Positions 17,928-32,772 of a stretch of 64,000 nt of DNA are shown here, piece after piece. The notes below the pieces were generated by a model. The model did no database searches and was not told the origin of the DNA. It saw nothing but the letters and a program-made list of their open reading frames with translations. Source of the DNA: Luteimonas sp. (GTDB taxonomy: Bacteria > Pseudomonadota > Gammaproteobacteria > Xanthomonadales > Xanthomonadaceae); assembly GCA_024707405.1 (NCBI GenBank), contig JANPZU010000008.1:124001-188000 (forward strand), in the 5' to 3' direction. Each line of letters starts with the position of its first letter. The stretch's first letter is position 1. Position numbers and translations under genes: made by a program.

Positions 17928-19001
17928 TCACACCTTGACGTGCCAGCCGCGCTTGTCCATCCAGCGCACGACCAGCCACCACAACGCCACGTAGCACAGC
18001 GCGATGGCGAGCGACGGCAGGTAGGGGCCGAACAGTGGCGTCATCCAGCCGGCGAATGCGCGCTGGTAGATCGCACTCCATGCACCGGTGCCCAGCAACA
18101 CGTAGATCAAGGCGGCGGCACCGGCATACGCGGTGATCGCGTTGACCCCGAAACTGCGACCGATGGCCGGCCAGCCGCGCCTGTCCACGAGCGCGTGCAG
18201 CACGAGCAACGCCAGCAAGGCCCAACCCGCCGTCCACAGCACGTAGGACGATGTCCACAGCGGCTTGTTGAGCGGGAACCACAACGACCAGAGCCACCCC
18301 AGCGCCAGCATCAGCACCGACGCGACCACCATCGTGCGCAGTTCGCCGCGGCGCAGCCATGCGCCTGCACGCACGCCAAGCAACGTGGTGGCCAGCGCCG
18401 GCAAGGTGCTCAGCAGGCCTTCGGGTTCCTGGCCGAGGCCGGTGGCGGGATCGAAGATGTACTGGAACCTGCCGAGTACGGCGGTATCGAAACGGTTGGC
18501 CAGGTTCTCGCCCGGCGCATACGTGCCGCCAGCCGCCATCAACGCCCAGTAACCGACCAGCAGGATCGCGATGAGGATCCACTGCACGCGCGGCTTGACG
18601 TGCATCGCGACCAGCGCGGCGAACAGGAAGCACACGCCGATCCGCTGCAGTACGCCCATGATGCGCAGCACCGGACGGTCGAGCAGCCACATCGCCAATG
18701 CGTGCAGCAGCAGCCCGATGGCGATGATCTTCAGCGCGCGCACCACGATGCCGCGCTGCAGCTTCCCGGTATCGCCTCCCGCTTCCACGCGCGGCACGAT
18801 GCCGAGTGCGATCGACACGCCGACCACGAACAGGAAGAACGGGAAGATCAGGTCGGTCGGCGTGCAGCCGTGCCAATCGGCGTGCAGCAATGGCGCATAG
18901 ACATGGCCCCAGTCGCCGGGGTTGTTGACCAGCAGCATCGCCGCGACGGTGATGCCGCGCAGCGCGTCGACCGATGCGAAACGCTGCGGCGCGGCACTCA
19001 T
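17928..19001 (-). CDS. nagX: NagX-like inner-membrane acyltransferase (DUF5009/HGSNAT-like)
   Basis: A 357-residue membrane protein with about ten hydrophobic segments. The start 'FASVDALRGITVAAMLLVNN' and 'CTPTDLIFPFFLFVVGVSI' are typical of the NagX family, related to heparan-alpha-glucosaminide N-acetyltransferase. In GlcNAc regulons of Xanthomonadales and Alteromonadales, NagX is tied to GlcNAc uptake or acetylation at the inner membrane; its exact reaction is unsettled. The start at 19001 overlaps the nagA stop by four bases (ATGA), so it is the last gene of nagR-nagB-nagA-nagX. A truncated azurin follows. Confidence 0.88.
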   Translation of the reverse strand: MSAAPQRFASVDALRGITVAAMLLVNNPGDWGHVYAPLLHADWHGCTPTDLIFPFFLFVVGVSIALGIVPRVEAGGDTGKLQRGIVVRALKIIAIGLLLHALAMWLLDRPVLRIMGVLQRIGVCFLFAALVAMHVKPRVQWILIAILLVGYWALMAAGGTYAPGENLANRFDTAVLGRFQYIFDPATGLGQEPEGLLSTLPALATTLLGVRAGAWLRRGELRTMVVASVLMLALGWLWSLWFPLNKPLWTSSYVLWTAGWALLALLVLHALVDRRGWPAIGRSFGVNAITAYAGAAALIYVLLGTGAWSAIYQRAFAGWMTPLFGPYLPSLAIALCYVALWWLVVRWMDKRGWHVKV

Positions 19002-20146
19002 GCGTGGTGTTCCACGTTGCCTGCGATCCAGGTCGCGCGCACCGCGAGGTCGGCGTCGAGCAGGGCGAGATCCGCGACATGTCCCGGCGCGATGCGGCCT
19101 CGCTGGTGGTCGATGCCAAGGAACTCGGCCGGATAGCGCGATGCCATCCGCGCCGCTTCGTCGAGCGGCAGGCCCAGCAGGTGCACGCAATTGCGCACGG
19201 CGGTGATCATGTCCAGCGCCGATCCCGCCAGCGCGCCGGCGGCATTGCGCACCACGCCATCGACCGCGGTGATGGTTTCACCGTACAGCGTGAAGGATGG
19301 ATCATCCGCGCCGACCATCGGCATCGCATCGGTCACCAGGAACAGTTTGCCGCGCGGCTTGGCCGCCAGCGCGACGCGCAGGCTGGCCGGGTGCACGTGC
19401 ACGCCATCGACGATGATCCCGCACCAACTGCCTTCGTCTTCGAGCGCAGCGCCCACCGCGCCCGGCTCCCGCCCTTGCAGCGGCGACATCGCGTTGTAGA
19501 GGTGGGTGAAACCGCGGATGCCGGCGTCGAGTCCGGCACGGATCTCGTCGTAGTTGCCTGCGGTATGTCCGGCGGCGACGATCGCGCCGCGTTCGACGAA
19601 GGCACGAATCGCCTCCACCGGCACCTGCTCCGGCGCCAACGTGAGCAAGGTGGGGCCACCACGCAACGAGGTGGCGAGTTCGATTTCGCCTGCGTCGGGC
19701 ACGCGGAACACCGCTGCATCGTGCGTGCCCTTGCGTGCAGGCGCGAGGTACGGCCCTTCGAGATGGATGCCGAGCACGCCGGGCGCATGTTGCGCGATGG
19801 CTTCGCTGGCAGCGGCGACGGCGGCGCGCATCACCTCGATGCGGTCGCTGATCAGCGTCGGCAACAGGCCGGTCACGCCGAAGCGGCGATGCGCGCGCGC
19901 AATGGCTGCGATGCCGTCGACCGTCGGCGTGTTGTTGAACAGAACGCCGCCACCGCCGTTGACCTGCACGTCGATGAAGCCGGGCACGAGGTATCCGCCT
20001 TCGAGATCGACTCGCGTTGCCGCATGCGCGCGTCGGTCGCCGCCATCGAGCACGTCGACGATGCGTCCGTCTTCGACCAGCACCACGAGATCGTCGCGGA
20101 AACCATCGTCGAGCAACACGCGACCATTGACGAGTGCCGTGGACAT
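18998..20146 (-). CDS. nagA: N-acetylglucosamine-6-phosphate deacetylase
   Basis: A 382-residue amidohydrolase that turns GlcNAc-6-P into glucosamine-6-P and acetate. Visible motifs: 'GFIDVQVNGGGGVLFNN', 'GIHLEGPYLAPARKGTHD' with the metal-binding Glu, 'IVAAGHTAGNYDEI' and 'GFTHLYNAMSPL' with the metal His residues, and 'LFLVTDAMPMVG' with the catalytic Asp. The start at 20146 overlaps the previous stop (TGATG), so translation is coupled to nagB-II. The upstream extension of the open frame was rejected because it lies inside nagB-II. Confidence 0.95.
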   Translation of the reverse strand: MSTALVNGRVLLDDGFRDDLVVLVEDGRIVDVLDGGDRRAHAATRVDLEGGYLVPGFIDVQVNGGGGVLFNNTPTVDGIAAIARAHRRFGVTGLLPTLISDRIEVMRAAVAAASEAIAQHAPGVLGIHLEGPYLAPARKGTHDAAVFRVPDAGEIELATSLRGGPTLLTLAPEQVPVEAIRAFVERGAIVAAGHTAGNYDEIRAGLDAGIRGFTHLYNAMSPLQGREPGAVGAALEDEGSWCGIIVDGVHVHPASLRVALAAKPRGKLFLVTDAMPMVGADDPSFTLYGETITAVDGVVRNAAGALAGSALDMITAVRNCVHLLGLPLDEAARMASRYPAEFLGIDHQRGRIAPGHVADLALLDADLAVRATWIAGNVEHHA

Positions 20147-21222
20147 CACACCGTTTCCGTCACCTTGTTGAGGTGCGGCGGCTTGTCCGGATCGTGCCCG
20201 CGCCGCAACGACAGCGCGTTCACCGCGCGATAGAAACTCTGCACCAGCAACAGCGGCGCGCATGCGGGATGCGGCGCTTCGGCCACGGGCAGGTTGCCGC
20301 CGAGTCCTTCATCGGATGGCGGGTTGCGCGAAGCGACCCACACCTGCGCACCGCGCGCACGGAACTCGTGCGCCAGCGCCAACGTGCCACCTTCGGTTTC
20401 ATCGGGCTGCGCGAGGATCAAGACCGGGAAGCCCGGCCCGACCAGCGCCATCGGCCCGTGCTTCACTTCCGCCGAGCTGTAGGCTTCGGCATGCAGTCCG
20501 CAGGTTTCCTTGAACTTGAGCGCGGCTTCCTGCGCGGCGCCAAGCCCCACGCCGCGACCAAGCACGAACAGGTTGCGCTTGGACTCCAGCCCCCATTCCA
20601 GGTGCGACCAGTCGCATTGCCATGCCGCGCGCATCGCATCGGGCAGCCTGCCGAGCGCATCGAGCAACGCGGCTTCGCCTTTCCAAAGCGCGGCAAGCTG
20701 CAGCACGGCCGACAGCGAGGCGAGGTAACTCTTGGTCGCCGCGACGCTGCGTTCCGGCCCGGCATGCAGCGGCACCACCACGTCGGACAACTGTGCGAGC
20801 GGCGAGTCCTCGACGTTCACCAGCGCGACCACGCGCGCACCGGCCTCGCGGGCGGCTTCGACATTGCGCAGCAGGTCGGGGCTCTTGCCCGACTGCGAGA
20901 TCGCGATGAACAGCGACCCGCGCAATTGCTGCCTGACGCCATAGACCGAACCGACCGAAGGCGAGACCGACGCGGTCACCACGCCCAGCTGGGTCTCGAA
21001 CAGGTATTTCGCATAGGTGGCGGCATGGTCGGAACTGCCGCGCGCGCAGGTGGCGACGAACGGCGGCGGGTTCTTGCGCAGGTCGTCGGCCAGCGCCGCG
21101 AGCACGTCGCGGTTGCGTGCGAATTGCCGCTCGACCACGTCGGCCGCTTCCGCGGCTTCGCGGAACATCCAGGTCGTCGTCGCGCGTTCCGCCACGTCGG
21201 CATCCCCCTTCACTGCGTTCAT
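20146..21222 (-). CDS. nagB-II: Glucosamine-6-phosphate deaminase of the SIS type (NagB-II)
   Basis: A 358-residue protein with two SIS domains: 'FVATCARGSSDHAATYAKYL' with 'ISQSGKSPDLLRN' in the first, and 'LFVLGRGVGLGAAQEAALKF' with 'EAYSSAEVKHGPMALVG' in the second. This is the isomerase half of GlmS without its glutaminase domain, known in Shewanella and Xanthomonas as NagB-II. It converts glucosamine-6-P to fructose-6-P and ammonia, feeding glycolysis. It overlaps nagR upstream by four bases. An AgaS-type role is the alternative, but the nag context decides. Confidence 0.92.
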   Translation of the reverse strand: MNAVKGDADVAERATTTWMFREAAEAADVVERQFARNRDVLAALADDLRKNPPPFVATCARGSSDHAATYAKYLFETQLGVVTASVSPSVGSVYGVRQQLRGSLFIAISQSGKSPDLLRNVEAAREAGARVVALVNVEDSPLAQLSDVVVPLHAGPERSVAATKSYLASLSAVLQLAALWKGEAALLDALGRLPDAMRAAWQCDWSHLEWGLESKRNLFVLGRGVGLGAAQEAALKFKETCGLHAEAYSSAEVKHGPMALVGPGFPVLILAQPDETEGGTLALAHEFRARGAQVWVASRNPPSDEGLGGNLPVAEAPHPACAPLLLVQSFYRAVNALSLRRGHDPDKPPHLNKVTETV

Positions 21223-22286
21223 GCCTCTCCCTGCGATGGCGCGCGCGGGCGAACCGGCGCAGTCGAGCCGCGCACCACCAGTTGCGGCACGAAGCCCTGG
21301 TTGCGCACCGGCGTGTTGGCGTCCTGGCGCAAGCCGGCGATCAACATGCGTGCGGCATGGCGCGCGATGTCTTCGGTGGCCTGCTTGGCGGTGGTGAGCG
21401 CCGGCCACGACTGCCGCGAGAACGGGCTGTCCTCGAAGCCGGCGATCGACAGGTCATACGGGACGTTCATGCCTGCCGATTTCGCCGCGGCCAGCACGCC
21501 GGCCGCGACCTCGTCGTTGGAACCGAAGATCGCCGTCGGCGGATCACGCAGGGCCAGCAGGCGCCGCGCGCCGCGGAAGCCGTCGTCGAAGGTGTAGTCG
21601 CCGGGGATCACCAGGTGCTTGTCGAGGGTGATGCCGTAATCCTTCAGCGCCTGCTCGTAGCCGAGGTAACGCTCGGAACTGGAGCGGTGCTCCTCCCCGC
21701 CCCAGAGGAAACCGATGCGCTGGTGGCCGAGCTGTATCAGGTGCTCGGTGATTTCGTAGGCGGCATCGCGATCGTCCACGTAGACGCAGGGATGGCCGTC
21801 CTGCGGATCCTCCGCGGCGGCGATGATGCGCGCGACGCGGATGCCGCGCGCAGCGAGCACTTCGATCAGGTCGAGCCGTTCCGACATCGGCGCGGTCAGC
21901 ACCAGGCCGGCAAGCCGCGACCGCTGCGCCAGTTCGGCGAGCTCTTCCGCCAGCAGCGGCGAGGTCGCGTCGCAGGGATGGATCTGCAGGCCGAAGCCGG
22001 TCTCGCGGCACGCGGCGAGCACGCCGTTCTGCACCGCGATGATGTGGTACGGGTTGGGGTTGTCGTAGACCAGCCCGATCACGTAGGCGCTGGAACTGCG
22101 CAGGTTGCGCGCGGACGGGTCGGGCTCGTAATCCAGTTCGGCGATGGCCTGCAGCACCCGCGCCCGGGTCGCCGGCAGCACCGACGGCTCGTTGTTGATC
22201 ACCCGCGAGACGGTCTTCAGGGACACCCCGGCCAGCTCCGCGACGGTGCGGATGGTCGGTTTGCGCTGGTTGCCGTGCTCGACCAT
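21219..22286 (-). CDS. nagR: LacI-family regulator of GlcNAc use, NagR
   Basis: A 355-residue LacI/GalR repressor. The DNA-binding head 'PTIRTVAELAGVSLKTVSRV' is followed by the hinge 'DYEPDPSARNL' and a periplasmic-binding-protein-like effector domain ('AYVIGLVYDNPNPYH', 'AIFGSNDEVAAGVL'). ATG 22286 puts the helix-turn-helix at the normal distance from the N-terminus. It heads the nag operon and diverges from the kinase gene; palindromes fitting a LacI operator lie at 22330-22343 and 22563-22578. In relatives the effector is GlcNAc-6-P or a near metabolite. Confidence 0.93.
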   Translation of the reverse strand: MVEHGNQRKPTIRTVAELAGVSLKTVSRVINNEPSVLPATRARVLQAIAELDYEPDPSARNLRSSSAYVIGLVYDNPNPYHIIAVQNGVLAACRETGFGLQIHPCDATSPLLAEELAELAQRSRLAGLVLTAPMSERLDLIEVLAARGIRVARIIAAAEDPQDGHPCVYVDDRDAAYEITEHLIQLGHQRIGFLWGGEEHRSSSERYLGYEQALKDYGITLDKHLVIPGDYTFDDGFRGARRLLALRDPPTAIFGSNDEVAAGVLAAAKSAGMNVPYDLSIAGFEDSPFSRQSWPALTTAKQATEDIARHAARMLIAGLRQDANTPVRNQGFVPQLVVRGSTAPVRPRAPSQGEA

Positions 22287-22329
22287 GTCGCCTCTCCTGT
22301 CGCCCCGATGTCCCATTGCAGGACATGAA

Positions 22330-22343
22330 GACTAACGTTGTCA
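22330..22343. promoter_or_regulatory. Candidate NagR operator, nagR side
   Basis: GACTAACGTTGTCA: the right half AACGTTGTCA matches the palindrome TGACAACGTTGTCA completely, while the left half is poor. It lies 44 bases before the nagR start, where binding would give autorepression of the nag operon. Confidence 0.55.
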
Positions 22344-22562
22344 TACTTTCACGGCAATTGCCACGGGATCCCGCTTCCGGCATGACAGCGCCGCTGCATG
22401 TTGTCTGCTGCCATGCAGCATGGGCCATCGAGACAACGGCAGCGCAGCGACGAGATTTTGCCTGATTAACTGCATATCAGGATTAAATTTTGGCTTGAAT
22501 GGCAGTTTGTTGTCGAATTCAGGACGCTCGGCCTGTATCCGCAACGTCTCTGCAAAATTTCC

Positions 22563-22578
22563 TTGACATCGTTGTCAA
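22563..22578. promoter_or_regulatory. Candidate NagR operator, kinase side
   Basis: TTGACATCGTTGTCAA is a near-perfect 16-bp palindrome with a central CG, as LacI-family operators have. It contains TTGACA, so binding would cover a -35 box for the kinase gene 58 bases downstream. The rest of the 350-base divergent region (22287-22635) is AT-rich around 22450-22560 and holds no gene. Confidence 0.65.
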
Positions 22579-22635: not shown

Positions 22636-23655
22636 GTGACCGCCCTCAGCCGCACACAGCCCACCCCCCATGACGCGACGACCGGTGCGCCGTTCATCGC
22701 CGCCGATGTCGGAGGGACGCATGTCCGCCTCGGACTGGTGCGTGGGAACGGCGGCCGGGTCGAGGTGCTGGAGTACGACAAGTTCGCCTGCGCCGACTAT
22801 CCCGGTCTGGCCGAAGTGATCGAAACCTTCCTGGCGCGCCTGCCGTCGCAGCCCGCGATCCGCACCGGCGTGATCGCCTGCGCCGGCCACGCCCTGCCCG
22901 ACGGCACCCTGCTCACCGTCAACCTGCCGTGGCCGGTTTCGCTGGCACGGATCAAGTCCCGGCTGGGCCTGGACGACTTTCGCCTGGTCAACGACTTCGA
23001 AGCCGTGGCCCACGCCATGGGGCAGGTCGGCGCACAGGCACTGGTTCGCCTGTCCGGCCCCACCACGGCACCGGAAGGCCCGGTGCTGGTGGTCGGCCCC
23101 GGCACCGGACTTGGCGCGGCCGTCCGCATCCCGACGCCGCACGGCGCGGTGGTGCTGGCCACCGAAGCAGGCCAGTCCGCGCTGACCGTGGGCAACGACC
23201 TGGAAATGGCGGTGCTGCGCGAATTCCTGAAGGAACGCAGCCACGTGCCGATCGAACACGCACTCTCCGGCCCCGGCCTGGTGCGGTTGCACCACGCGCT
23301 CGCGGCGGTGCGCGGCGTGCCCGCGTCGCACGAAACGCCGGGCGCGATCAGCGCGGCGGCGGCCTCGGGCGATGACGCGCTCGCGCGCGAAACGCTCGAC
23401 CTGTTCTGCGGCCTGCTCGGCAGCGCGATCGGCGACATGGCGCTGCTGTACGGCGCGCACGGCGGCATCCACCTCGCCGGCGGCGTGTTGCCGCAGATCC
23501 GCGAGTTCCTGTTGCAAAGCGACTTCGTCGCCCGGTTCCTCGACAAGGGGCCGATGCGCGAGGCGCTCGAAGGCATTCCCGTGACGCTGGTCGAGCACGG
23601 GCAGCTTGGCGTGCTTGGCGCCGCCGGCTGGTACCTCGGCCTGGACGAAGACTAA
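22636..23655 (+). CDS. Glucokinase-family sugar kinase, probably GlcNAc kinase
   Basis: A 339-residue Glk-type hexokinase-fold kinase. The phosphate-1 motif is 'FIAADVGGTHVRLGLV', the catalytic Asp is in 'LVNDFEAVAHAMG', and 'VLVVGPGTGLGAAV' is the second nucleotide motif; no ROK-type zinc motif is present. In Xanthomonas nag regulons Glk-like enzymes (NagK) phosphorylate incoming GlcNAc, and its position opposite nagR behind an operator-like palindrome supports that over plain glucokinase. Start at 22636 is a GTG after a short leader (GCCGCAGTGACC); no better start was seen upstream. The NagP-like receptor follows. Confidence 0.88.
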   Translation: MTALSRTQPTPHDATTGAPFIAADVGGTHVRLGLVRGNGGRVEVLEYDKFACADYPGLAEVIETFLARLPSQPAIRTGVIACAGHALPDGTLLTVNLPWPVSLARIKSRLGLDDFRLVNDFEAVAHAMGQVGAQALVRLSGPTTAPEGPVLVVGPGTGLGAAVRIPTPHGAVVLATEAGQSALTVGNDLEMAVLREFLKERSHVPIEHALSGPGLVRLHHALAAVRGVPASHETPGAISAAAASGDDALARETLDLFCGLLGSAIGDMALLYGAHGGIHLAGGVLPQIREFLLQSDFVARFLDKGPMREALEGIPVTLVEHGQLGVLGAAGWYLGLDED

Positions 23656-23803
23656 CGAGTGAACGGACGCCCGCCCCGCAACGCGATGCACCACCTGCGC
23701 ATGCCACCGCACACGACGGAAGGATGCGACGGCCACGCCACTGGCACCACCGGGATCCATGCCGGCTGCCGCAGCCAATCCCATCATGATGGAGAGAACC
23801 GCC

Positions 23804-26695
23804 ATGAACCATAAGAAGACCATGCTCTCGGCCGCGATCGCCGTCTGCCTGGGCGTCGCGCCGCAACTGCACGCGCAAGAGGCCGCCCCGCAGGACGACA
23901 CGACGACAACGGCGTCCAACGCCAACGAACTCGACCGCGTGGTCGTCACCGGCATCCGCGCCAGCCTGCAGCAGGCACTGGGCGCGAAGCGAAACGCCGA
24001 CGCGATCATCGACGTGATCACCGCCGAGGACGTGGGCAAGTTCCCCTCCACCAACGTCGCCGAGGCCATCACCATCCTGCCGGGCGTGACCATCGACAAG
24101 GCCTTCGGCCAGGGCGAAAAAGTCAGCATCCTTGGTACCGATCCGGCACTCAACCGCACCGTGCTCAATGGCCAGACCGTCGCCTCCGCGGACTGGTTCA
24201 TTTCCGACCAGCCGGGCCGCACGTTCAACTATTCGCTGCTTTCGCCGCAATTGGTCGGCAAGGTCGAGGTCTACAAGTCGCCGGAAGCATGGCTGGACGA
24301 AGGCTCGATCGGCGGCACGGTGAACATCTCCACGCGCAAGCCGCTCGACCTGGACGGCACCACGATCTCCGGCAGCCTCAGCTACCTGGAGAACGATCGC
24401 ATCGGCAGCGGCGATCCGTCGGTCTCCGCACTCGTGGGCTGGAAGAACCAGGCCGGCAACTTCGGCGTGATCGTGTCGGCACAGCGCTCGAACGAGAGCA
24501 TCCGCCGCGACGGCATCGAGTCCTACGGCACGGTGACGGGCGACCACTACATCCGTGGCAGGGAAGGCGCGCCCAACTCCATCAGCACCACCGGCACCGA
24601 CTGGTCCACCGATCCGCCGGGCGTCGTGCCGCCGAGCTGCGTCGGCGCCTGCGCCACCACCTTGCTGGCCAATCCGAACGCGGTGGCCCCGAACTCGATC
24701 AGCGCGCACTATTTCGAGCAGACGCGCGATCGCGACACGCTGTCGGTGGCGCTGCAGTTCAAGCCGCACGAAAAGCTGGACATCGAGTTCAACTCGCTCA
24801 ACGTGAAGGCCGACTACGACAACATCAGCCACTCGATGTTCGCCTTCAACGGCAACGTCTGGAACTCGCTGGGCAACATGACCGACCTGACTGTGGACGG
24901 CGGCGTCATCACCCGCGCCTCGTTCCGCAACGCGCTGACGGTCTACGACCTGATCAACCGCCAGGCGACGGTGGACACCGATTCCTACGACCTGAAGTTC
25001 ACGTGGAAGGACGAGCGCTGGTTCGCGTCAGCGCACGCAGGCACCTCGAAAGCCGGCGGCGGCACGGGACGACAGGTGTATGGCTCGTTCCTAAACAAGG
25101 CCAGCTACAGCTACGACCTGACCGGCAAAGTCCCCAGGCTGAATTTCAGCGGCTACCAGACCGATGCCATCCAGGACGTCGCGGCCCACTTCCCGTCCGC
25201 CCAGACCGGAAGCCCGTTCAACGACCCGACCGCCTACAGCTTCGATCGCGGCGAACCTTGCGAACCGTACTCCTGGGGCTGTGGCTGGCACGCCAATCCG
25301 GCCACTGCCGAGAACTGGCGTCCTGGCTGGGGTGGCAACATCGTCACCAAGCCGACGCACGACGAAGAGTTGTATGCACAGGTCGACTTCGGCATCCAGT
25401 TCGATGCGCCGATCTACCAGGTTCGCTTCGGCCTGAAGCGGCGCGAGCATGAAACCGGGCAGTCGATGGCCGGCGTGTCGCTCGCGTCGATCAAGGGCTA
25501 CGGCGATTTGAGCGCCGACATGTTCGACCCGCGCTCGCTGCCGAGCAACTACCTCAGTGGCTTCGGCGACGTCGGCGATCTCGACACCCGCTTCATGATC
25601 GACGGTTGGGCACTGGCCGACTACATCCTCAGCGGCGACTGGCTGGCACCGTGGCAGACGATGCCGGTACCGAGCACCTTTGCAGACCCCTCGTTCGCGG
25701 CGAACACCTGGACGGTGACCGAGGACGTCAACGCTGCCTACGTGCAGGCCGACTACAGCTGGAACGGTTTCCGCGGCAACATCGGCCTGCGCTACGTGCA
25801 GACCGAATCCGACAGCATGAGCTGGGCCTGCGCGGTCAACGTCAGCCCGTGCCCGGTCACCGGCTACGAGCAGGTCAGCGTCAAGAAGAAGTACAACGAC
25901 ATCCTGCCCAACATCAACGTCGTGTACGACCTGAGCGACACGGTGGTGCTGCGCGGCTCGGCGGCGAAGGTCATCGCCCGCCCGAACTACGGCGACATGT
26001 CGAGCTACCTGTGGCTGGGCGACCAGACCCTGACCGGCGGCGGCGGCAATCCCCAACTCGATCCGTACGAGTCCACCAACCTGGACTTCTCGGCCGAGTG
26101 GTACTTCACCGACAACGCCATCCTCGCCGGCACGCTGTTCCACAAGAAGGTCGACAACTACATCCTGGTGACGACGCAGAAGGAAACGCATTTCAACCAG
26201 GCGATGAACCGTGATGCCGAGTACGACGTTTCCCGTCCCAACAACGCGGGCGGCGCGAAGATCCAGGGTGCATCGCTGGCCTTCCAGACCAACTTCGCCA
26301 ACGGCTTCGGCCTTGTCACCAACTACACCTATGCCGATGCCAAGGCCGACAACGGCGACCACCTGCCGTACAACTCGAAGAACCAGGTCAATGTCAGTCC
26401 GTTCTTCGAGAACGACCGCTTCAGCGCGCGCCTGACCTATGCCTGGCGTTCGAAGTACTACACCCAGGTCGACCGCGGCAACTACCTGGTCACCGACGAC
26501 TACGATTCGCTGGATGCGAGCCTGAACTTCAAGATCAACGAGAACCTCAGCATCGGCCTGGACGGCATGAACCTGCTCGACAGCGAGTACCGGTCGTATG
26601 CCGAAGTGCCGGGCGTCGCCAACACCGAGATGCTGGTGCGCGGCTTGTACAGAACCGGCCGTCGCTACATGGCATCGCTGCGGTTCCAGTTCTGA
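23804..26695 (+). CDS. NagP-like TonB-dependent receptor for (chito-)oligosaccharides
   Basis: A 963-residue outer-membrane receptor. The signal peptide ends QLHAQE (about residue 26). The N-terminus 'ELDRVVVTGIRASLQQALGA' with 'NADAIIDVITAEDVGKFPST' is the hallmark of the large sugar-type receptors of Xanthomonas, Caulobacter and Alteromonas, of which NagP imports GlcNAc or chitin oligomers. The plug continues to about residue 170, and the barrel ends 'YMASLRFQF' with the terminal aromatic residue used for assembly. ATG 23804 has GGAGAGAA upstream. It follows the kinase by 148 bases and is closed by a terminator. Confidence 0.9.
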   Translation: MNHKKTMLSAAIAVCLGVAPQLHAQEAAPQDDTTTTASNANELDRVVVTGIRASLQQALGAKRNADAIIDVITAEDVGKFPSTNVAEAITILPGVTIDKAFGQGEKVSILGTDPALNRTVLNGQTVASADWFISDQPGRTFNYSLLSPQLVGKVEVYKSPEAWLDEGSIGGTVNISTRKPLDLDGTTISGSLSYLENDRIGSGDPSVSALVGWKNQAGNFGVIVSAQRSNESIRRDGIESYGTVTGDHYIRGREGAPNSISTTGTDWSTDPPGVVPPSCVGACATTLLANPNAVAPNSISAHYFEQTRDRDTLSVALQFKPHEKLDIEFNSLNVKADYDNISHSMFAFNGNVWNSLGNMTDLTVDGGVITRASFRNALTVYDLINRQATVDTDSYDLKFTWKDERWFASAHAGTSKAGGGTGRQVYGSFLNKASYSYDLTGKVPRLNFSGYQTDAIQDVAAHFPSAQTGSPFNDPTAYSFDRGEPCEPYSWGCGWHANPATAENWRPGWGGNIVTKPTHDEELYAQVDFGIQFDAPIYQVRFGLKRREHETGQSMAGVSLASIKGYGDLSADMFDPRSLPSNYLSGFGDVGDLDTRFMIDGWALADYILSGDWLAPWQTMPVPSTFADPSFAANTWTVTEDVNAAYVQADYSWNGFRGNIGLRYVQTESDSMSWACAVNVSPCPVTGYEQVSVKKKYNDILPNINVVYDLSDTVVLRGSAAKVIARPNYGDMSSYLWLGDQTLTGGGGNPQLDPYESTNLDFSAEWYFTDNAILAGTLFHKKVDNYILVTTQKETHFNQAMNRDAEYDVSRPNNAGGAKIQGASLAFQTNFANGFGLVTNYTYADAKADNGDHLPYNSKNQVNVSPFFENDRFSARLTYAWRSKYYTQVDRGNYLVTDDYDSLDASLNFKINENLSIGLDGMNLLDSEYRSYAEVPGVANTEMLVRGLYRTGRRYMASLRFQF

Positions 26696-26788: not shown

Positions 26789-29122
26789 ATGACCCGACCA
26801 TTCCCGACGCCCATGCGAACGCTGCTGGCACCTTGCCTGCTGGCATTGCTGGCCGCCTGCTCCAAGGGCACGCCCGCGCCGTCTCAGGCCGAAGTGGTGG
26901 CAAAGCCCGCGTTGATCCCGGCACCGGCGAGCCTGCAGCCGGCCGAAGGCAGCTTCCGCTTCGATGCCGCGACGCCGGTCTTCGCCGACAGCGAGGCCGA
27001 GCGCCGCGTCGCCGACCGATTCACCGAACTGGTGGCGGCGACCAACGGCGTCGAGGGCGGGATACGCGCGGATGATCCCGGGACGGCCAACGGCATTGTC
27101 TTCGCCATCGATCCCGCCGTGTCCATCGATGCCCCCGAGGGCTACACCCTCGACGTCAGCTCGCAGGGCGTGCGCGTGGCTGCATCGGACGAGCGCGGCC
27201 TGTCCCATGGCGCCACCACGCTGTGGCAATTGATTTCATCCGCGCAAGGCGCTGCGGTTCGCATCCCCGCGATGCGCATCGAGGATGCACCGCGCTTCGG
27301 CTGGCGCGGGCTGATGCTCGATTCCGCGCGCCACTTCCAGTCCGTCGACGAGATCAAGCAACTGCTCGACGCGATGGCGCTGCACAAGCTCAACACCTTC
27401 CACTGGCACCTGACCGACGACCAGGGCTGGCGCATCGAGATCCGCAAGTATCCGCGGCTGGCCGAAATCGGCGGCTGCCGCATCCCAGCCGGCGAAGCCG
27501 GCGTCGACCCGAAGACCGGCGAGCCGCGCCCCTATTGCGGCTATTACACGCAGGAACAGATCCGCGACGTGGTCGCCCATGCCGCGCGGCGCCACATCAC
27601 CGTAGTACCGGAGTTCGACATGCCCGGGCATGTGCAGGCCGTCGTCGCCGCGTATCCGCAATACGGTTCGCTCGGCGACACGCCGCCGGTGTCGAACGAA
27701 TGGGGCGTGCACCAGTACCTGTTCAACGTCGAGGAAGACACCTTCGGCTTCATCGAGGACGTGCTCGACGAAATCCTCGAACTGTTCCCGTCCACCTACA
27801 TCCACATCGGTGGCGACGAAGCGGTCAAGGATCAGTGGAAGGCATCGGCCAGCGTGCAGGCACGCATGCGTGAACTGGGCATCGCGGACGAAACCGCGTT
27901 GCAGAGTTGGTTCATCAAGCGCATCGAAGTCTACCTGTCCGGCAAGGGACGACGCCTGCTCGGATGGGACGAGATCCTCGATGGCGGCATCGCACCGAAC
28001 GCGACCGTCATGTCGTGGCGCGGCACCGAGGGCGGCATCGCCGCGGCGCGTTCCGGCCACGACGTGGTGATGTCGCCGGGCAGCCATCTCTACCTCGATT
28101 TCCTGCAAACGGCCTCGCCGAACGAACCGCCGGGACGACCGATGCAGGTGCCGCTGGAGAAGGTCTACGGCTTCGAACCGGTGCCGGAAGAGCTGACCAC
28201 CGAGCAGGGCAGGCACATCCTCGGCGTGCAGGCCAACGTGTGGACGGAACACATGCGCACCTGGTCGCGCATGCAGCACGCGATCTTCCCGCGCATCGCC
28301 GCGCTGGCCGAAACCGCATGGTCGCCGCAAGACAAGAAGAACTACGCCGACTTCCTGACACGACTGCCGGCGCAACTGCCGCGCTACCGCGCCTTCGGCA
28401 TCGACTATGCGAAGACGCCGTTCGAAGTGCTCGCGAGCGCCGAAGACGATCGTGCCGCAGGCACGGTGCGGGTATCGCTGGAGAATCCGCTCGGCTATGC
28501 CGTGCGCTACACCACCGACGGCAGCGAGCCCGATGCGGATTCGCCGCTGTACGAAACGCCGGTCGATGCCACGCTGCCGCTCGAGATCCGCGCCGCGGCC
28601 TTCGCCGGCACCACGCCGCTCGGCCCGGCATCGCGCCATGCCTTCGATGCCGCCAACCTGCTGTTGCGCACCGACGAACAACTCGCGACGTGCCCGGATA
28701 CCGGTCGCCTGCTGCTGCGCCTGGAAGACGACGGCCCGGTCGAGGGCGAGCGCGCGATCTTCAACGTCACCATCTTCTACCCTTGCTGGCTGTGGCAGGA
28801 CGCCAACCTCGATGGCATCGGTGCAATGCAAGTGCGCCTGGGGCGGCTGCCTTACTACTTCCAGCTGGCACACGACGAACCTGCGCGCCGGTTCATGCCG
28901 GCCGACACCGAGCATGGCGAACTGCTGGTGCAGGCTGGTGGCTGCACTGGCGAGACACTCGCACGCATCCCGCTGCCGGTGCAGGCCAACGCCGACGGAT
29001 TCGTCGACATCGACGTGCCGCTGTCCGATGTGTCCGGCCACAGCGACCTGTGTTTCACCGCCACCGGCGACACGCGCCCGGAGATGTGGGTGCTCGATCG
29101 CGTTGAGCTGGTAGCGCGTTGA
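26789..29122 (+). CDS. hex: Beta-N-acetylhexosaminidase, GH20 lipoprotein
   Basis: A 777-residue enzyme that removes terminal GlcNAc from chito-oligomers or glycans. Lipobox LAAC (Cys about residue 28) indicates membrane anchoring. A GH20b domain lies at residues 40-160, then the catalytic barrel with 'FHWHLTDDQGWRIEIRKYP' and the catalytic Asp-Glu pair in 'YIHIGGDEAVKDQW' (about residue 335-345), ending with 'NVWTEHMRTWSRMQHAIFPR'. After it comes a CHB_HEX_C-like domain ('YTTDGSEPDADSPLYETPV') and a C-terminal extension of about 170 residues without a recognised family. It supplies GlcNAc to the nag pathway. Confidence 0.93.
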   Translation: MTRPFPTPMRTLLAPCLLALLAACSKGTPAPSQAEVVAKPALIPAPASLQPAEGSFRFDAATPVFADSEAERRVADRFTELVAATNGVEGGIRADDPGTANGIVFAIDPAVSIDAPEGYTLDVSSQGVRVAASDERGLSHGATTLWQLISSAQGAAVRIPAMRIEDAPRFGWRGLMLDSARHFQSVDEIKQLLDAMALHKLNTFHWHLTDDQGWRIEIRKYPRLAEIGGCRIPAGEAGVDPKTGEPRPYCGYYTQEQIRDVVAHAARRHITVVPEFDMPGHVQAVVAAYPQYGSLGDTPPVSNEWGVHQYLFNVEEDTFGFIEDVLDEILELFPSTYIHIGGDEAVKDQWKASASVQARMRELGIADETALQSWFIKRIEVYLSGKGRRLLGWDEILDGGIAPNATVMSWRGTEGGIAAARSGHDVVMSPGSHLYLDFLQTASPNEPPGRPMQVPLEKVYGFEPVPEELTTEQGRHILGVQANVWTEHMRTWSRMQHAIFPRIAALAETAWSPQDKKNYADFLTRLPAQLPRYRAFGIDYAKTPFEVLASAEDDRAAGTVRVSLENPLGYAVRYTTDGSEPDADSPLYETPVDATLPLEIRAAAFAGTTPLGPASRHAFDAANLLLRTDEQLATCPDTGRLLLRLEDDGPVEGERAIFNVTIFYPCWLWQDANLDGIGAMQVRLGRLPYYFQLAHDEPARRFMPADTEHGELLVQAGGCTGETLARIPLPVQANADGFVDIDVPLSDVSGHSDLCFTATGDTRPEMWVLDRVELVAR

Positions 29123-30419
29123 TCGGGCGGGCGCGGCGGCACACGCCGTCACGCCCCGTCCTTGTGCCGGATAAATACAGCAGGTAGTCGCGACGCACGG
29201 CCTCGAACCGGCGCAAGTCGTCCTGCCAGCGCGCCTCGATGGCGTCGAGTCGCTCGCCATCGAGGATCATCCCGCGCACCCAGCCATTGCCTGCAAGCTT
29301 GTCGAAGAACGGCGATTCGCCGGGCAGGAACGCGAAATCGTCCGGATGCATCGCGCGCATCGCCAGCAGCAGCGCAATGCCGGTACGGACGGGACGGAAC
29401 GCATCGCGGTCGGTGACGTGCAACTGCACGCCACCGCACAACTCACCGGCATGCTTGGAAAACGTCGGCGTGAACCACGTCGGACGGAACCGCACGCCCG
29501 GCAACGCCAATGCATTCATGCGCTCGGCCAATGCTTCGGCATCGACGAACGGCGCACCGATGGTCTCGAACGGGCGCGTGGTGCCGCGTCCTTCCGACAC
29601 GTTGGTGCCTTCGAACAACGCGGTGCCAGGATAGACCAGCGCGGTGTCGGGCGTGGGCATGTTGGGCGACGGCAGTATCCAGGGCAGCGCCTGGCCTGGC
29701 TCGCGCATGTCACGACGCCATCCGCGCATCGGCACGACATGCAGTTCCGCGCCGATGCCGAATGCATCGTTGAACAGCATCGCCAGTTCGCCGATGGTCA
29801 TGCCATGGCGGATCGGGATCGGAAACATGCCGACGAAGGAAGCGTATTCCGCCTCCAGCACCGGCCCTTCGACGTGCTTGCCGCCGATCGGATTCGGACG
29901 ATCCGGCACCACCACGGGGATGCCTGCGCGCCGTGCCGCGCGCATCACGTTCGCCAACGTGTAGGGATAGGTATAGAAGCGCGCGCCGACGTCCTGGATG
30001 TCGAACACCAGAACATCGATGCCTTCGAGCATCGCCGCGGTCGGTTCGCGATGCTCATCGTAGAGGCTGTGCACCGGCAGGCCGGTCTTGCGGTCATGCG
30101 AAGAGTCGACGCGATCGCCCGCCTGCACATCGCCGCGCACGCCATGCTCCGGCCCGAACAAGGCCACGAGCCGCACGTCCGGATGCGCGGCCAGCAGGTC
30201 GACGCTGCTGCGCAGGTCGCGATCAATGCCGGTGGGATTGGTGACAAGTCCCACTCTCTTCCCGGCCAACAGATCGATGCGTTCTTCCAGCAGCACTTCG
30301 ATGCCCGGTACGACATGACCCCCGCTGCAATCGCAGGCATCATCCGCCGCCATTGCGATCGCGGGCGCAAGCAGCATGGCGGCGGCGAGCATGACGGCGG
30401 CCCGGCACAGGATGCGCAT
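29055..30419 (-). CDS. namZ: Exo-beta-N-acetylmuramidase NamZ-like (DUF1343)
   Basis: A secreted DUF1343 protein of 454 residues (ATG 30419; 30449 would add ten). Signal peptide 'MLLAPAIAMAADD'. Family motifs: 'LAGKRVGLVTNPTGIDRD', 'LVALFGPEHGVRGDVQAG', 'VFDIQDVGARFYTYPYT', 'VVPDRPNPIGGKHVEGPVL' and 'RHGMTIGELAMLFN'. NamZ of Bacillus releases MurNAc from the non-reducing end of peptidoglycan fragments. Family members end near 'RRDYLLY'; here the frame runs on for about 38 more residues and overlaps the hex 3' end by 68 bases tail to tail, so a late frame error or lost stop is possible. It diverges from the MurQ-like gene. Confidence 0.88.
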   Translation of the reverse strand: MRILCRAAVMLAAAMLLAPAIAMAADDACDCSGGHVVPGIEVLLEERIDLLAGKRVGLVTNPTGIDRDLRSSVDLLAAHPDVRLVALFGPEHGVRGDVQAGDRVDSSHDRKTGLPVHSLYDEHREPTAAMLEGIDVLVFDIQDVGARFYTYPYTLANVMRAARRAGIPVVVPDRPNPIGGKHVEGPVLEAEYASFVGMFPIPIRHGMTIGELAMLFNDAFGIGAELHVVPMRGWRRDMREPGQALPWILPSPNMPTPDTALVYPGTALFEGTNVSEGRGTTRPFETIGAPFVDAEALAERMNALALPGVRFRPTWFTPTFSKHAGELCGGVQLHVTDRDAFRPVRTGIALLLAMRAMHPDDFAFLPGESPFFDKLAGNGWVRGMILDGERLDAIEARWQDDLRRFEAVRRDYLLYLSGTRTGRDGVCRRARPINALPAQRDRAPTSPGACRRWR

Positions 30420-30544
30420 CGCGGTCACGCTTGGGACATTTCGTGTCATCGCGCAGGAACCCCGGGGCGCGAAGCGCTGCCGCCGTCGCGCTCTGTTATC
30501 GTTGCGCCGGTTTATAGCACGGGTTCACGACCGGTCGCGTCGCT

Positions 30545-30558
30545 GCGCGACGTTGTCA
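30545..30558. promoter_or_regulatory. Candidate NagR operator between namZ and the MurQ-like gene
   Basis: GCGCGACGTTGTCA: the right half ACGTTGTCA is identical to both candidates near nagR, the left half is weak. It lies in the 268-base divergent region (30420-30687), which otherwise holds no gene. If real, it would place both genes under NagR. Confidence 0.4.
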
Positions 30559-30687
30559 TGCATATGCCGACCACGCCAACCAGCAGCCACGCACGATGAA
30601 CGAAGACAGGGGGCACATGCGGTGTCGAGAGGCGTGCGCCATGCCGCGCCGCACGCACGCCCCGATGCAAACGAGGATGCCAACGCC

Positions 30688-32772
30688 ATGCCCGAACACC
30701 GTCGCCTCCGCCATCTCGTGTTGTGCATCGCCGGCATGATGGGCATCGCGCACGCCGCCGACGTCACTCCCCCATCCGACAGCGTCTCCACGCTGCTCGG
30801 CATATCGCCCTCCGCGGAATCAAGCGATTACGTGGAGACCAAGCAGCAGTTCCAGCTACACACGTTGCTCACCGAGCAGCGCCATCCGGAGACGATGGAT
30901 CTCAGCCGCCGCATCGGCGCCGACACCATGGCCGGCCTGCAGGCGCTGTTCGCGGTGGATCGCGATGTCGCCCGCACCATGGAGGCCGTCGCCGACGACC
31001 CGGCACGACTGCAATTGCTGCAACAGGCCTCGCAATCGATCCAGCGTGCGTTGCGCGACGGCCATCGCATCTATTTCTACGGCACCGGCTCGACCGGCCG
31101 TCTCGCGGAAACGCTGGAAAGCGGCCTGTGGCGACCGTTCTGGCAACGCGCGGCTACCCAGCCTTCCTGGCCGAAGATCGAAGCGGCGCTGCCCGGCATC
31201 GCCGATCGCGTGCGCGGCGAGATCACCGGGGGCGACCGCGCGCTGATCAGCTCGCTCGAAGGATTCGAAGACCTGCAACTGATCGGTCGCCTGCAACTGC
31301 AGGATCACGGCATCGGCGCCGGCGACGTGGTGTTCGCGGTCACCGAGGGCGGCGAGACATCCGCCGTGATCGGAACCGCGTTGCGCGGCAGCGAAGTGAA
31401 CGCCAACGATCCCTCGCGCACGTGGTTCGTGTACAACAATCCCGATGCGGTATTGCTGCCGTTCGAGCGCAGCCGCAGCGTGATCGAACACGCCGGCATC
31501 ACCAAGGTCAACCTCGCCACCGGGCCGCAGTCGATCACCGGCTCCACGCGCATGCAGGCCACCACGACCAGCCTGTACGCACTGGGCGTGGTGATGGAGG
31601 ACGCCATCCGCGCACTGCTGTCGCCGCTGCTCGACGCCGACGAAATGCGCGCGCTCGGGTTCGGCGAGGACACCGGGATCGCCGCGCGGCTGCGCGATTT
31701 CTCGCAACTGCAGCGCGACGTCGCGTCCACCGCGCCTTCGCTCGCCGCATGGACGGATCTGGAAGCCACGGCCTATGCCGAGGGCAAGCACGCGACCTAC
31801 CTCGCTGCGCGTGCACTGATGCCGGTGTTCGTGGACGTTACCGAACGCGCGCCGACGTTCCGTCTGGCGCCGCTGGATCGCATCGACGCCAGCGAACGCC
31901 GTTCGTGGATCCAGGTCTGGACGCCCGCCGACGATGCCGCGCAAGCGTGGCAGGCACTGCTGCACCGGCCATTTCACGGGCTCGACCCGGCGCTGTACGA
32001 AGCGCCGTTCACCGATGGCATCGACGATCCCTACCTGCGCCGTGCTGCGCTGCGCAGCCTCGCGCTGGCCGGGGAAGAGCAGCAGCATCTCTACGACCTG
32101 TCGTGGTCGCAGGACAACATGCGCCGAGGTGGCCCTGTCGAAGGCGACGTGGGCGTGTCGATCCTGCTCGGCGACGAACTGCCGGACGACGGCAGCCTCG
32201 ACTGGCTGCGCATGTTCGATGCCGCGGGCGCCTCCACCCTCCTCGTGCGCGTCTCGAGGTCGTCCCTTCCCGATGGCTTCGCCCAGACACTCGCGACGAC
32301 ATCGCAGGGGACACGGATCCTACAATTGACGCTGCCCGCGGACGATCCGCTCGAACTCAACCAGACCATCGCGCTGAAGATGCTGCTCAACGCGCACTCG
32401 ACCGGGATCATGGCCAAGCTGGGCCGCGTGGTCGGCAACACCATGACCGCGGTGCAGCCGGGCAACCTCAAGTTGATCGGGCGCGCCACCTACCTGCTGC
32501 AGTCTCACGTCAACGCGGTGCTGGCCAGCGATGCCTGGCACCGGGCGAACGGTACGCGCACGCCGTTGTCCTACGCCGATGCCAATGCGGTGCTGTTCGA
32601 CGTGATCGAACAACGTCGCGGCGATGCCGCGCTGTCCGCACATCCGGAAGTCGAATTGTGCATCGTGCGCGTGCTGGAAAGCCTGCGCCTGGGTCGCGCG
32701 ATCGGATGGAACGATGCCGCGGCGTTGTTGCGCGAACGCAAGCTGGACGATTACCTCGCCGCCTACGATTGA
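30688..32772 (+). CDS. Tandem MurQ-like double-SIS protein (GKRP-like), possibly exported
   Basis: A 694-residue protein. The first half follows MurQ, the MurNAc-6-P etherase: 'LLTEQRHPETMDLSRR', 'IYFYGTGSTGRLAETLESG', a Glu in 'SLEGFEDLQ', 'VFAVTEGGETSAVIGTAL' and 'GPQSITGSTRMQATTTSLYA'. The second half repeats the C-terminal part: 'NQTIALKMLLNAHSTGIMAK' and 'LGRVVGNTMTAVQPGNLKLI'. Two MurQ units in one chain is the architecture of vertebrate glucokinase regulatory protein, which derives from MurQ. The two etherase Glu residues appear kept (about 144 and 191). The start at 30688 gives a signal-like N-terminus 'HLVLCIAGMMGIAHA', odd for an enzyme of a phosphosugar; an internal Met would remove it. 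Its substrate is unproven. Confidence 0.8.
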   Translation: MPEHRRLRHLVLCIAGMMGIAHAADVTPPSDSVSTLLGISPSAESSDYVETKQQFQLHTLLTEQRHPETMDLSRRIGADTMAGLQALFAVDRDVARTMEAVADDPARLQLLQQASQSIQRALRDGHRIYFYGTGSTGRLAETLESGLWRPFWQRAATQPSWPKIEAALPGIADRVRGEITGGDRALISSLEGFEDLQLIGRLQLQDHGIGAGDVVFAVTEGGETSAVIGTALRGSEVNANDPSRTWFVYNNPDAVLLPFERSRSVIEHAGITKVNLATGPQSITGSTRMQATTTSLYALGVVMEDAIRALLSPLLDADEMRALGFGEDTGIAARLRDFSQLQRDVASTAPSLAAWTDLEATAYAEGKHATYLAARALMPVFVDVTERAPTFRLAPLDRIDASERRSWIQVWTPADDAAQAWQALLHRPFHGLDPALYEAPFTDGIDDPYLRRAALRSLALAGEEQQHLYDLSWSQDNMRRGGPVEGDVGVSILLGDELPDDGSLDWLRMFDAAGASTLLVRVSRSSLPDGFAQTLATTSQGTRILQLTLPADDPLELNQTIALKMLLNAHSTGIMAKLGRVVGNTMTAVQPGNLKLIGRATYLLQSHVNAVLASDAWHRANGTRTPLSYADANAVLFDVIEQRRGDAALSAHPEVELCIVRVLESLRLGRAIGWNDAAALLRERKLDDYLAAYD

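Follow-up and report, generated by a model that had tools for sequence, protein, structure and literature searches.

A tandem MurQ-like protein with an export-like leader, encoded beside NamZ in Luteimonas, as a candidate exported etherase of N-acetylmuramic acid

A gene for a tandem SIS-SIS-lid protein related to MurQ lies in the 64,000-nucleotide stretch of Luteimonas sp. DNA that was analysed here (the window; NCBI GenBank assembly GCA_024707405.1, contig JANPZU010000008.1, positions 124,001 to 188,000 of the forward strand). Around it are, in order, genes for NagA, NagB-II and a LacI-family regulator on the minus strand, a glucokinase-family (Glk) kinase, a TonB receptor and a GH20 enzyme on the plus strand, NamZ on the minus strand, and the tandem protein itself on the plus strand (Table 1). 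An earlier note, made from the sequence alone, had described the open reading frame (ORF) as two MurQ-type units in one chain, with a divergent NamZ gene beside it and a Glk-type kinase gene nearby. All three descriptions are confirmed: the 694-residue protein has two SIS units, the second recognised by its fold; the divergent neighbour contains both NamZ domains; and the glucokinase-family gene lies ~7 kb from the tandem gene. This kinase is probably the N-acetylglucosamine (GlcNAc) kinase of the nag cluster.

The nearest named relative is the protein of Luteimonas aestuarii (locus L022), with 82-83% protein identity. Its N-terminus, MPRLSPARTLLLCLAGMTAMAHA, aligns with MPEHRRLRHLVLCIAGMMGIAHA of the window protein, which supports the start at 30688. 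The window protein begins MPEHRRLRHLVLCIAGMMGIAHAADV, with a charged start followed by a hydrophobic stretch and an Ala-rich end.

Table 1. Features of the window discussed in the text (positions are those of the window)
Feature	Position	Strand	Remarks
Tandem SIS-SIS-lid protein gene, 694 aa	30688..32772	+	ATG at 30688, stop at 32772
Signal-peptide-like segment, residues 1-24, MPEHRRLRHLVLCIAGMMGIAHAA	30688..30759	+	Hydrophobic stretch; putative cleavage place set by eye
First SIS domain, residues ~106-291	31003..31560	+	Sequence match to MurQ
TEGGET loop, residues 219-224, at the MurQ ASGRT place	31342..31359	+	80/80 family sequences
Second half: second SIS domain and C-terminal lid, residues 321-694	31648..32769	+	Predicted fold
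Segment LKMLLNAHST...GNTMTAVQPGNLKLIGRAT, residues ~563-601	32374..32490	+	Matches C-terminal part of MurQ and GKRP
NagA, N-acetylglucosamine-6-phosphate deacetylase	18998..20146	-	TIGR00221 4.9e-97, above cut-off; start uncertain
NagB-II-like glucosamine-6-phosphate deaminase (SIS)	20146..21219	-	NF046059 6.4e-102, below cut-off; start uncertain
LacI-family regulator	21219..22316	-	PF00356, PF13377
Glucokinase-family kinase	22636..23655	+	PF02685 9.8e-91; PRK12408 above cut-off
TonB-dependent receptor	23759..26695	+	TIGR01782 5.5e-194
GH20 beta-N-acetylhexosaminidase	26789..29122	+	PF00728 4.3e-119; lipoprotein-like N-terminus by eye
NamZ exo-beta-N-acetylmuramidase, divergent neighbour	29055..30449	-	PF07075 5.6e-86, PF20732 1.4e-61; hydrophobic N-terminus by eye

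The two halves of the protein were compared with MurQ by sequence and by structure. The first half matches MurQ 4s12 at E 4e-17 in a sequence search, aligns with MurQ over 206 columns at 32% identity using hhalign, and has 31% identity with 4s12 over 218 residues in structure comparison. In the second half just ~45-48 residues near its end match MurQ and GKRP (glucokinase regulatory protein) by sequence. A profile comparison of the N-half with the C-half found no similarity, and recognition of the second SIS unit therefore rests on fold. A whole-chain AlphaFold2 model built with 49 sequences has a mean local confidence (pLDDT) of 92.0 and a predicted template-modelling score (pTM) of 0.92. The second half predicted alone (321-694) has a pLDDT of 88.9 and a pTM of 0.78, and its first 18 PDB matches are all MurQ and GKRP chains. 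The SIS fold is thus present in both halves of the predicted structures, including the half that the earlier note had allowed might not adopt it. The alignable parts cover MurQ once, the N-half at columns 2-207 and the C-half at columns 188-282, as expected for one site formed across a pseudo-dimer.

Foldseek with the whole-chain model ranks GKRP first across the full length, and GKRP 4bba superimposes over 524 residues (VIA-align Z 35.6, root-mean-square deviation 2.9, 19% identity); other SIS proteins among the best 50 VIA-align matches have Z of 22.7 or less. The whole SIS-SIS-lid architecture is common to the tandem protein and GKRP (PDB 4bba, 4bb9, 4ly9, 3w0l). MurQ (PDB 4s12, 4lzj, 1nri) shares the SIS fold, the EGxED motif and the KxxLN...lid segment, but has one SIS unit per chain. 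The protein falls short of the profile cut-offs of both, scoring 84.1 bits against 302 for the MurQ model TIGR00274 (NCBIfam) and 24.7 bits against 27 for GKRP_SIS_N, PF22645 (Pfam), and the GKRP domains PF22198 and PF20741 are not among its Pfam matches at E 0.001. GKRP reportedly derived from MurQ, according to a 2009 paper, and a common origin of the tandem family with GKRP was considered. Identities in the compared segments, which are short and were not used for a tree, are 34% for family and GKRP, 37% for family and MurQ, and 45% for GKRP and MurQ (1 of 12 MurQ and 21 of 80 family rows were left out by the segment patterns). On these segments GKRP is nearer to MurQ than to the tandem family. 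The resemblance to GKRP drawn in the earlier note thus stands for the fold, and the segments do not support common descent.

A five-sequence alignment was used to scan genome contigs and brought up 121 relatives; the best 80 of these are considered here. Because the scan used the patterns [NT]K[QRT]QFQLH and SLEGFED[LI], the conservation seen at these two places is biased. By their record titles the 80 are labelled Lysobacteraceae, Candidatus Aminicenantes/Acidobacteriota, Chlamydiota, Bacteroidales, one Deferribacterales and one 'Clostridiales', and include no actinobacterial record. The family spans five phylum-level labels, and its members outside Lysobacteraceae are mostly from metagenome-assembled genomes (MAGs). 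Five Chlamydiota MAGs (L045, L048, L049, L052 and L097) hold members, with a leader-like segment in all except L097. A full-length tandem protein is present in 5 of 299 genomes of the order, and among 398 genomes drawn from the phylum only the window's own was found at E 1e-30. The rarity proposed in the earlier note therefore holds for these genome samples, although the contig scan yielded 121 relatives. In one of the five tandem genomes of the order, Lysobacter silvestris (G054; L121:8497-12690), the gene adjoins an ORF that by eye is phage-terminase-like.

A tree of 80 rows, made by a quick method, groups 23 Lysobacteraceae rows in a single clade, in which the window is beside L. aestuarii. 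Luteimonas panaciterrae (L061) is placed among the Aminicenantes rows on a long branch of 0.51, and the surrounding group has support of 92; this position suggests, with some uncertainty, a second entry by transfer.

Active-site motifs were compared between the family (80 of 81 rows, the window and its 80 relatives less L067, which has an internal stop) and 12 single-domain MurQ proteins of the order. The first SIS domain of the window protein contains GTGSTGRL (132-139), LEGFED (190-195), TEGGET (219-224) and GSTRMQ (285-290). All 12 of the single-domain proteins keep both [AV]SGRT and GSTR[LM][KR], but in 80/80 family sequences the MurQ loop ASGRT is replaced by TEGGET, and in 80/80 GSTR[LM][KR] is replaced by GSTR[ML]Q. 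The Lys of GSTRMK is thus Gln in the tandem family, whereas GKRP keeps the Lys in its SRMK. The SIS loop at the ASGRT place binds phosphate and includes a Ser; with two acids in this loop and the basic residues lost, the pocket speaks against a phosphosugar, and its remodelling suggests binding of a plain 6-hydroxyl instead of a phosphate.

Other motifs are retained or displaced to various degrees. LEGFED (EGxED) is kept in 80/80, a count biased by the use of this motif as a scan pattern. The Glu of DAxECPPT, which as Glu83 of E. coli MurQ is the proposed acid, is present in 12/12 single-domain MurQ proteins of the order. At the ECPPT place the tandem family has GRLxxxxES...WRPFW, and the nearby Glu of GRLxxxxES, invariant in 80/80, may or may not replace the MurQ acid. 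KxLLNxHST is missed in 27 of the 80 rows, one of its positions being variable, and KxxLNxHST is invariant in 49 sequences; GEMTGxDR is absent from 1/80 rows and TERxPTFRL from 3/80.

The N-termini were scored by a rule based on hydropathy only, calling for an 11-residue stretch with a mean Kyte-Doolittle value of at least 1.8 from the upstream-most start. Of the 81 loci 77 are measurable (L024, L072 and L095 are too short and L100 is without a start), and a hydrophobic leader stretch is found in 70 of the 77 at 1.8 or above and in 67 at 2.0. Control readings out of frame pass in 16/154 cases at 1.8 and 8/154 at 2.0, a further six being too short to score. Single-domain MurQ proteins have such a stretch in 2 of 11 cases (L009, L012) by the same rule and in 0 of 10 when read from the nearest ATG. 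Of the seven that fall short of 1.8, L093 is truncated by the choice of start, its near copies L084 and L101 passing, and L067 has the internal stop. The signal-like N-terminus pointed out in the earlier note thus recurs across phyla; homologues do not all start after it, although some lack it. We infer that the tandem protein is exported, the export-like leader being a further difference from both MurQ and GKRP. Leaders of lipobox type are seen in L005 (LLAAC) and L061 (VTAC). These belong to a second Luteimonas lineage (L005/L122, L061), in which a lipoprotein-type tandem form stands beside the gene for a GH3-beta-lactamase protein. A leaderless member (L090:7995-11593) has a gene for an SSF symporter directly after it; from this arrangement, a cytosolic branch with plain-sugar uptake may exist.

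The leader bears on the second of three options in the earlier note, that the protein controls the cytosolic Glk-type kinase in the manner of GKRP, which binds and inhibits a hexokinase, is responsive to fructose 6-phosphate and fructose 1-phosphate, and is itself no enzyme. The GKRP fold and the glucokinase-family gene in the cluster are in keeping with such a role. We reject it as extremely improbable, mainly on the export-like leader, since an exported protein could not meet a cytosolic kinase. In addition, the compared GKRP segments resemble MurQ more than they do the tandem family, and a match to the window Glk occurs in 3 of the 81 loci (L022, L055 and the window; tblastn, flanks of at most 8 kb except for the window).

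Neighbouring genes were identified using tblastn and a codon-position gene caller, which missed the MurQ of L115, L117 and L118 (recovered by motif). NamZ is found within 3 kb in 27 of the 81 loci, near copies included, with 14 of 23 in the Lysobacteraceae clade and 13 of 58 elsewhere; among the 56 loci whose two flanks are each 3 kb or longer the number is 23. A variety of arrangements is observed: in Lysobacteraceae NamZ is upstream on the opposite strand, next to the gene or with GH20 in between; 12 Aminicenantes-type loci, near copies among them, have it directly downstream on the same strand; and in the Deferribacterales locus L092 it is convergent.

NamZ and MurQ are also associated in the order as a whole. 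With the 299 genomes treated as one draw, NamZ is present in 16 and a MurQ-like match in 18, and 12 have both where ~1 would be expected if they were independent. Of these 12, three have the tandem protein and nine have a single MurQ; in 9/9 of the latter the MurQ and NamZ genes diverge and lie no more than ~0.3 kb apart (by match coordinates). Another family of the order has, in this place next to NamZ, an ordinary, leaderless MurQ. Five of the nine single-MurQ regions were fetched (L114 alone was scanned with Pfam, and the other four were examined by searches and by eye). The order in L114 (3154-13549) is SSF transporter, NagA, NamZ, MurQ, BadF kinase, a further gene, a second NamZ and an MFS protein that is read as AmpG. 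A second NamZ is present in 4 of the 5 single-MurQ genomes.

The same genomes differ in the genes that would serve uptake and phosphorylation of N-acetylmuramic acid (MurNAc). A BadF kinase is found in 4/5 single-MurQ genomes as against 1/5 tandem genomes, there far from the gene. The SSF transporter is matched at 72-100% identity in 4/5 single-MurQ genomes (one being the query's own), whereas four tandem genomes have matches of 26-33% and one has none. No tandem genome (0/5) has a MurQ-model match above the cut-off. Genomes with the tandem protein thus mostly lack the kinase-first route. NagP-like GlcNAc permeases are present in G268 (100%, the query's own), G284 (78%) and G054 (73%).

We propose that the tandem protein is probably an exported etherase that converts free MurNAc to GlcNAc and D-lactate outside the cytoplasm; we infer the substrate, the reaction, its site and the means of product uptake. 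A signal peptide, of lipoprotein type in the second Luteimonas lineage, would take the protein to the periplasm or its membranes. There NamZ would cut free MurNAc off the ends of wall glycan, and the tandem protein would strip the lactyl ether from the unphosphorylated sugar, giving GlcNAc and D-lactate. The GlcNAc, together with that released by GH20, would be imported; the Glk-type kinase would then phosphorylate it, and NagA and NagB-II would break it down. The chain itself would be a covalent MurQ pseudo-dimer with one active site made from both halves and the other lost: the first repeat would supply the SIS loops and EGxED, the second the KxxLNxHST...GNTMT segment and the lid, and the phosphate pocket would be rebuilt for a plain 6-hydroxyl (ASGRT to TEGGET, TRMK to TRMQ). 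Free MurNAc is likelier as substrate than anhydro-MurNAc, because the MurQ mechanism needs an open-chain aldehyde, which anhydro-MurNAc does not have free, and NamZ releases the free sugar.

Of the options in the earlier note, the three as a set are thus supported in part. The third, an exported enzyme acting on an unphosphorylated sugar, fits best, because the leader recurs across phyla, the phosphate loop is altered in 80/80 and NamZ is a recurrent neighbour; the first, a cytosolic etherase of MurNAc 6-phosphate (MurNAc-6-P), is disfavoured by leader and pocket, and the second, control of the kinase, by export. For the family at large we consider it on balance likely that these are etherases for unphosphorylated MurNAc, extracytoplasmic in the exported branch and needing no MurNAc transporter or kinase, each a one-site pseudo-dimer whose GKRP-like architecture arose independently.

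Several observations weigh against this proposal, its weak points being the missing MurQ acid, leaderless members with the same pocket, loci lacking NamZ, and GlcNAc uptake in the window's own genome, where the permease match is weak. The Glu of ECPPT is without a counterpart at its column in the tandem family, and EGxED also occurs in GKRP, a non-enzyme, so that the motif is not proof of catalysis. The missing acid, and the example of GKRP as a protein of the same architecture without enzyme activity, could instead indicate a non-catalytic exported sugar binder, a GKRP-like periplasmic sensor of MurNAc or GlcNAc. We regard this as distinctly unlikely: the gene is grouped with degradative enzymes, the slot beside NamZ is filled by MurQ in another family of the order, and 123 columns invariant among 49 sequences suit an enzyme.

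Leaderless rows (L046, L072, L086, L090, L095, L096 and L097) carry the same TEGGET loop, and in four AT-rich loci (L049, L052, L071 and L074) a reading out of frame comes close to the leader in hydrophobicity. AnmK is found in 5/5 tandem genomes, and MurNAc-6-P may therefore be made in their cytosol. In the window's own genome AnmK is in two overlapping pieces in different frames (contig 202778-203864, outside the window), and it is in one piece in the other four; the split is a frameshift in the gene or in the assembly. Furthermore, one single-MurQ genome (G049) has no BadF kinase match, another (G042) is without a close SSF transporter, and 4 of the 16 NamZ genomes (G092, G171, G186, G248) are without a MurQ-like match. 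The protein could instead be a cytosolic MurNAc-6-P etherase that completes a NamZ pathway, its leader non-functional. Homology of the first half to MurQ, the seven leaderless relatives, and AnmK in five genomes in which no other MurQ is above the cut-off are all consistent with this alternative. It is nevertheless very unlikely given the leader in most measurable relatives across phyla, the replacement of the phosphate-loop Ser and of the basic residues in 80/80, and the absence of a MurK-type kinase from 4/5 tandem genomes.

The proposed substrate is also open to challenge, as 33 of the 56 well-flanked loci are without NamZ within 3 kb (tblastn may miss a distant NamZ), and two of the five tandem genomes of the order (G054, G284) have no NamZ match at all. 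In L005/L122 and L061 the GH3-beta-lactamase gene is next door and no NamZ was found. An exported etherase or lyase of the same fold with another substrate would suit these loci and would share the evidence for export and for a pocket not made for phosphate; candidate substrates are anhydro-MurNAc, muropeptides, other 3-O-substituted amino sugars, and MurNAc at the reducing end of an oligosaccharide. This alternative is unlikely, if less so than those above, since NamZ, the source of free MurNAc, is a recurrent neighbour in three arrangements, and anhydro-MurNAc lacks the free aldehyde that the MurQ mechanism needs. As to uptake of the product, a search of the window's genome gave no close GlcNAc permease; its matches, like those of G235, are weak.

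The earlier note had also raised a possible NagR site, for which the evidence is weak. A 16-bp inverted repeat, TTGACATCGTTGTCAA, lies before glk at 22563-22578, and half-site-like matches are found before the LacI gene (22335-22344) and between NamZ and the tandem gene (30550-30559); the pre-glk site is the only fair inverted repeat among the three. The number of half-site-like matches in the window, 3 against 2.93 expected, is not above chance. The guessed 16-bp motif has one match in the window (0.16 expected), and a second pattern, derived from that match, is found at the same place only, on both strands (0.26 expected). For the stretch before the gene in 11 closely related loci, the best match is reached by at most 5% of plain shuffles in seven. 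No promoter or terminator pattern was found. The inverted repeat and half sites are a possible operator of the LacI regulator.

To our knowledge, removal of lactate from plain MurNAc outside the cytoplasm is not known for the MurQ family, and a limited literature search, aimed at an exported MurNAc etherase or a link between MurQ and GKRP, did not turn up such a protein. In the part of the literature available to us, MurQ acts on MurNAc-6-P (PMC5790795), and Tannerella forsythia imports MurNAc and phosphorylates it before cleaving the resulting MurNAc-6-P (PMC5790795). The MurT-MurK-MurQ system of that organism leads, like the route proposed here, to the level of GlcNAc plus D-lactate; uptake and phosphorylation come first there, whereas the tandem-protein route would cleave first. 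The L114 set of SSF transporter, NagA, MurQ and BadF kinase resembles MurT-MurK-MurQ (PMC5790795).

A like reaction has been proposed in mycobacteria, where, according to the portion of a 2026 preprint that was available (PMC13041923), MurNAc is likely converted to GlcNAc and lactate by a lactyl etherase that is not MurQ and for which no gene is named. That step is speculated to be cytoplasmic, whereas the tandem-protein step would take place outside, and the link between the two is one of analogy alone; the tandem family makes a non-MurQ type of lactyl etherase plausible elsewhere, and no more. If our proposal is correct, an exported MurQ relative that acts on the free sugar would mean a further way of feeding on peptidoglycan, and would provide a gene model for the type of reaction proposed in mycobacteria (PMC13041923). 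It would be a bacterial example of the GKRP architecture in which enzyme activity may survive, and would amount to an export-first catabolism of wall sugars, in which NamZ and the etherase act first and plain GlcNAc and D-lactate are then taken up.

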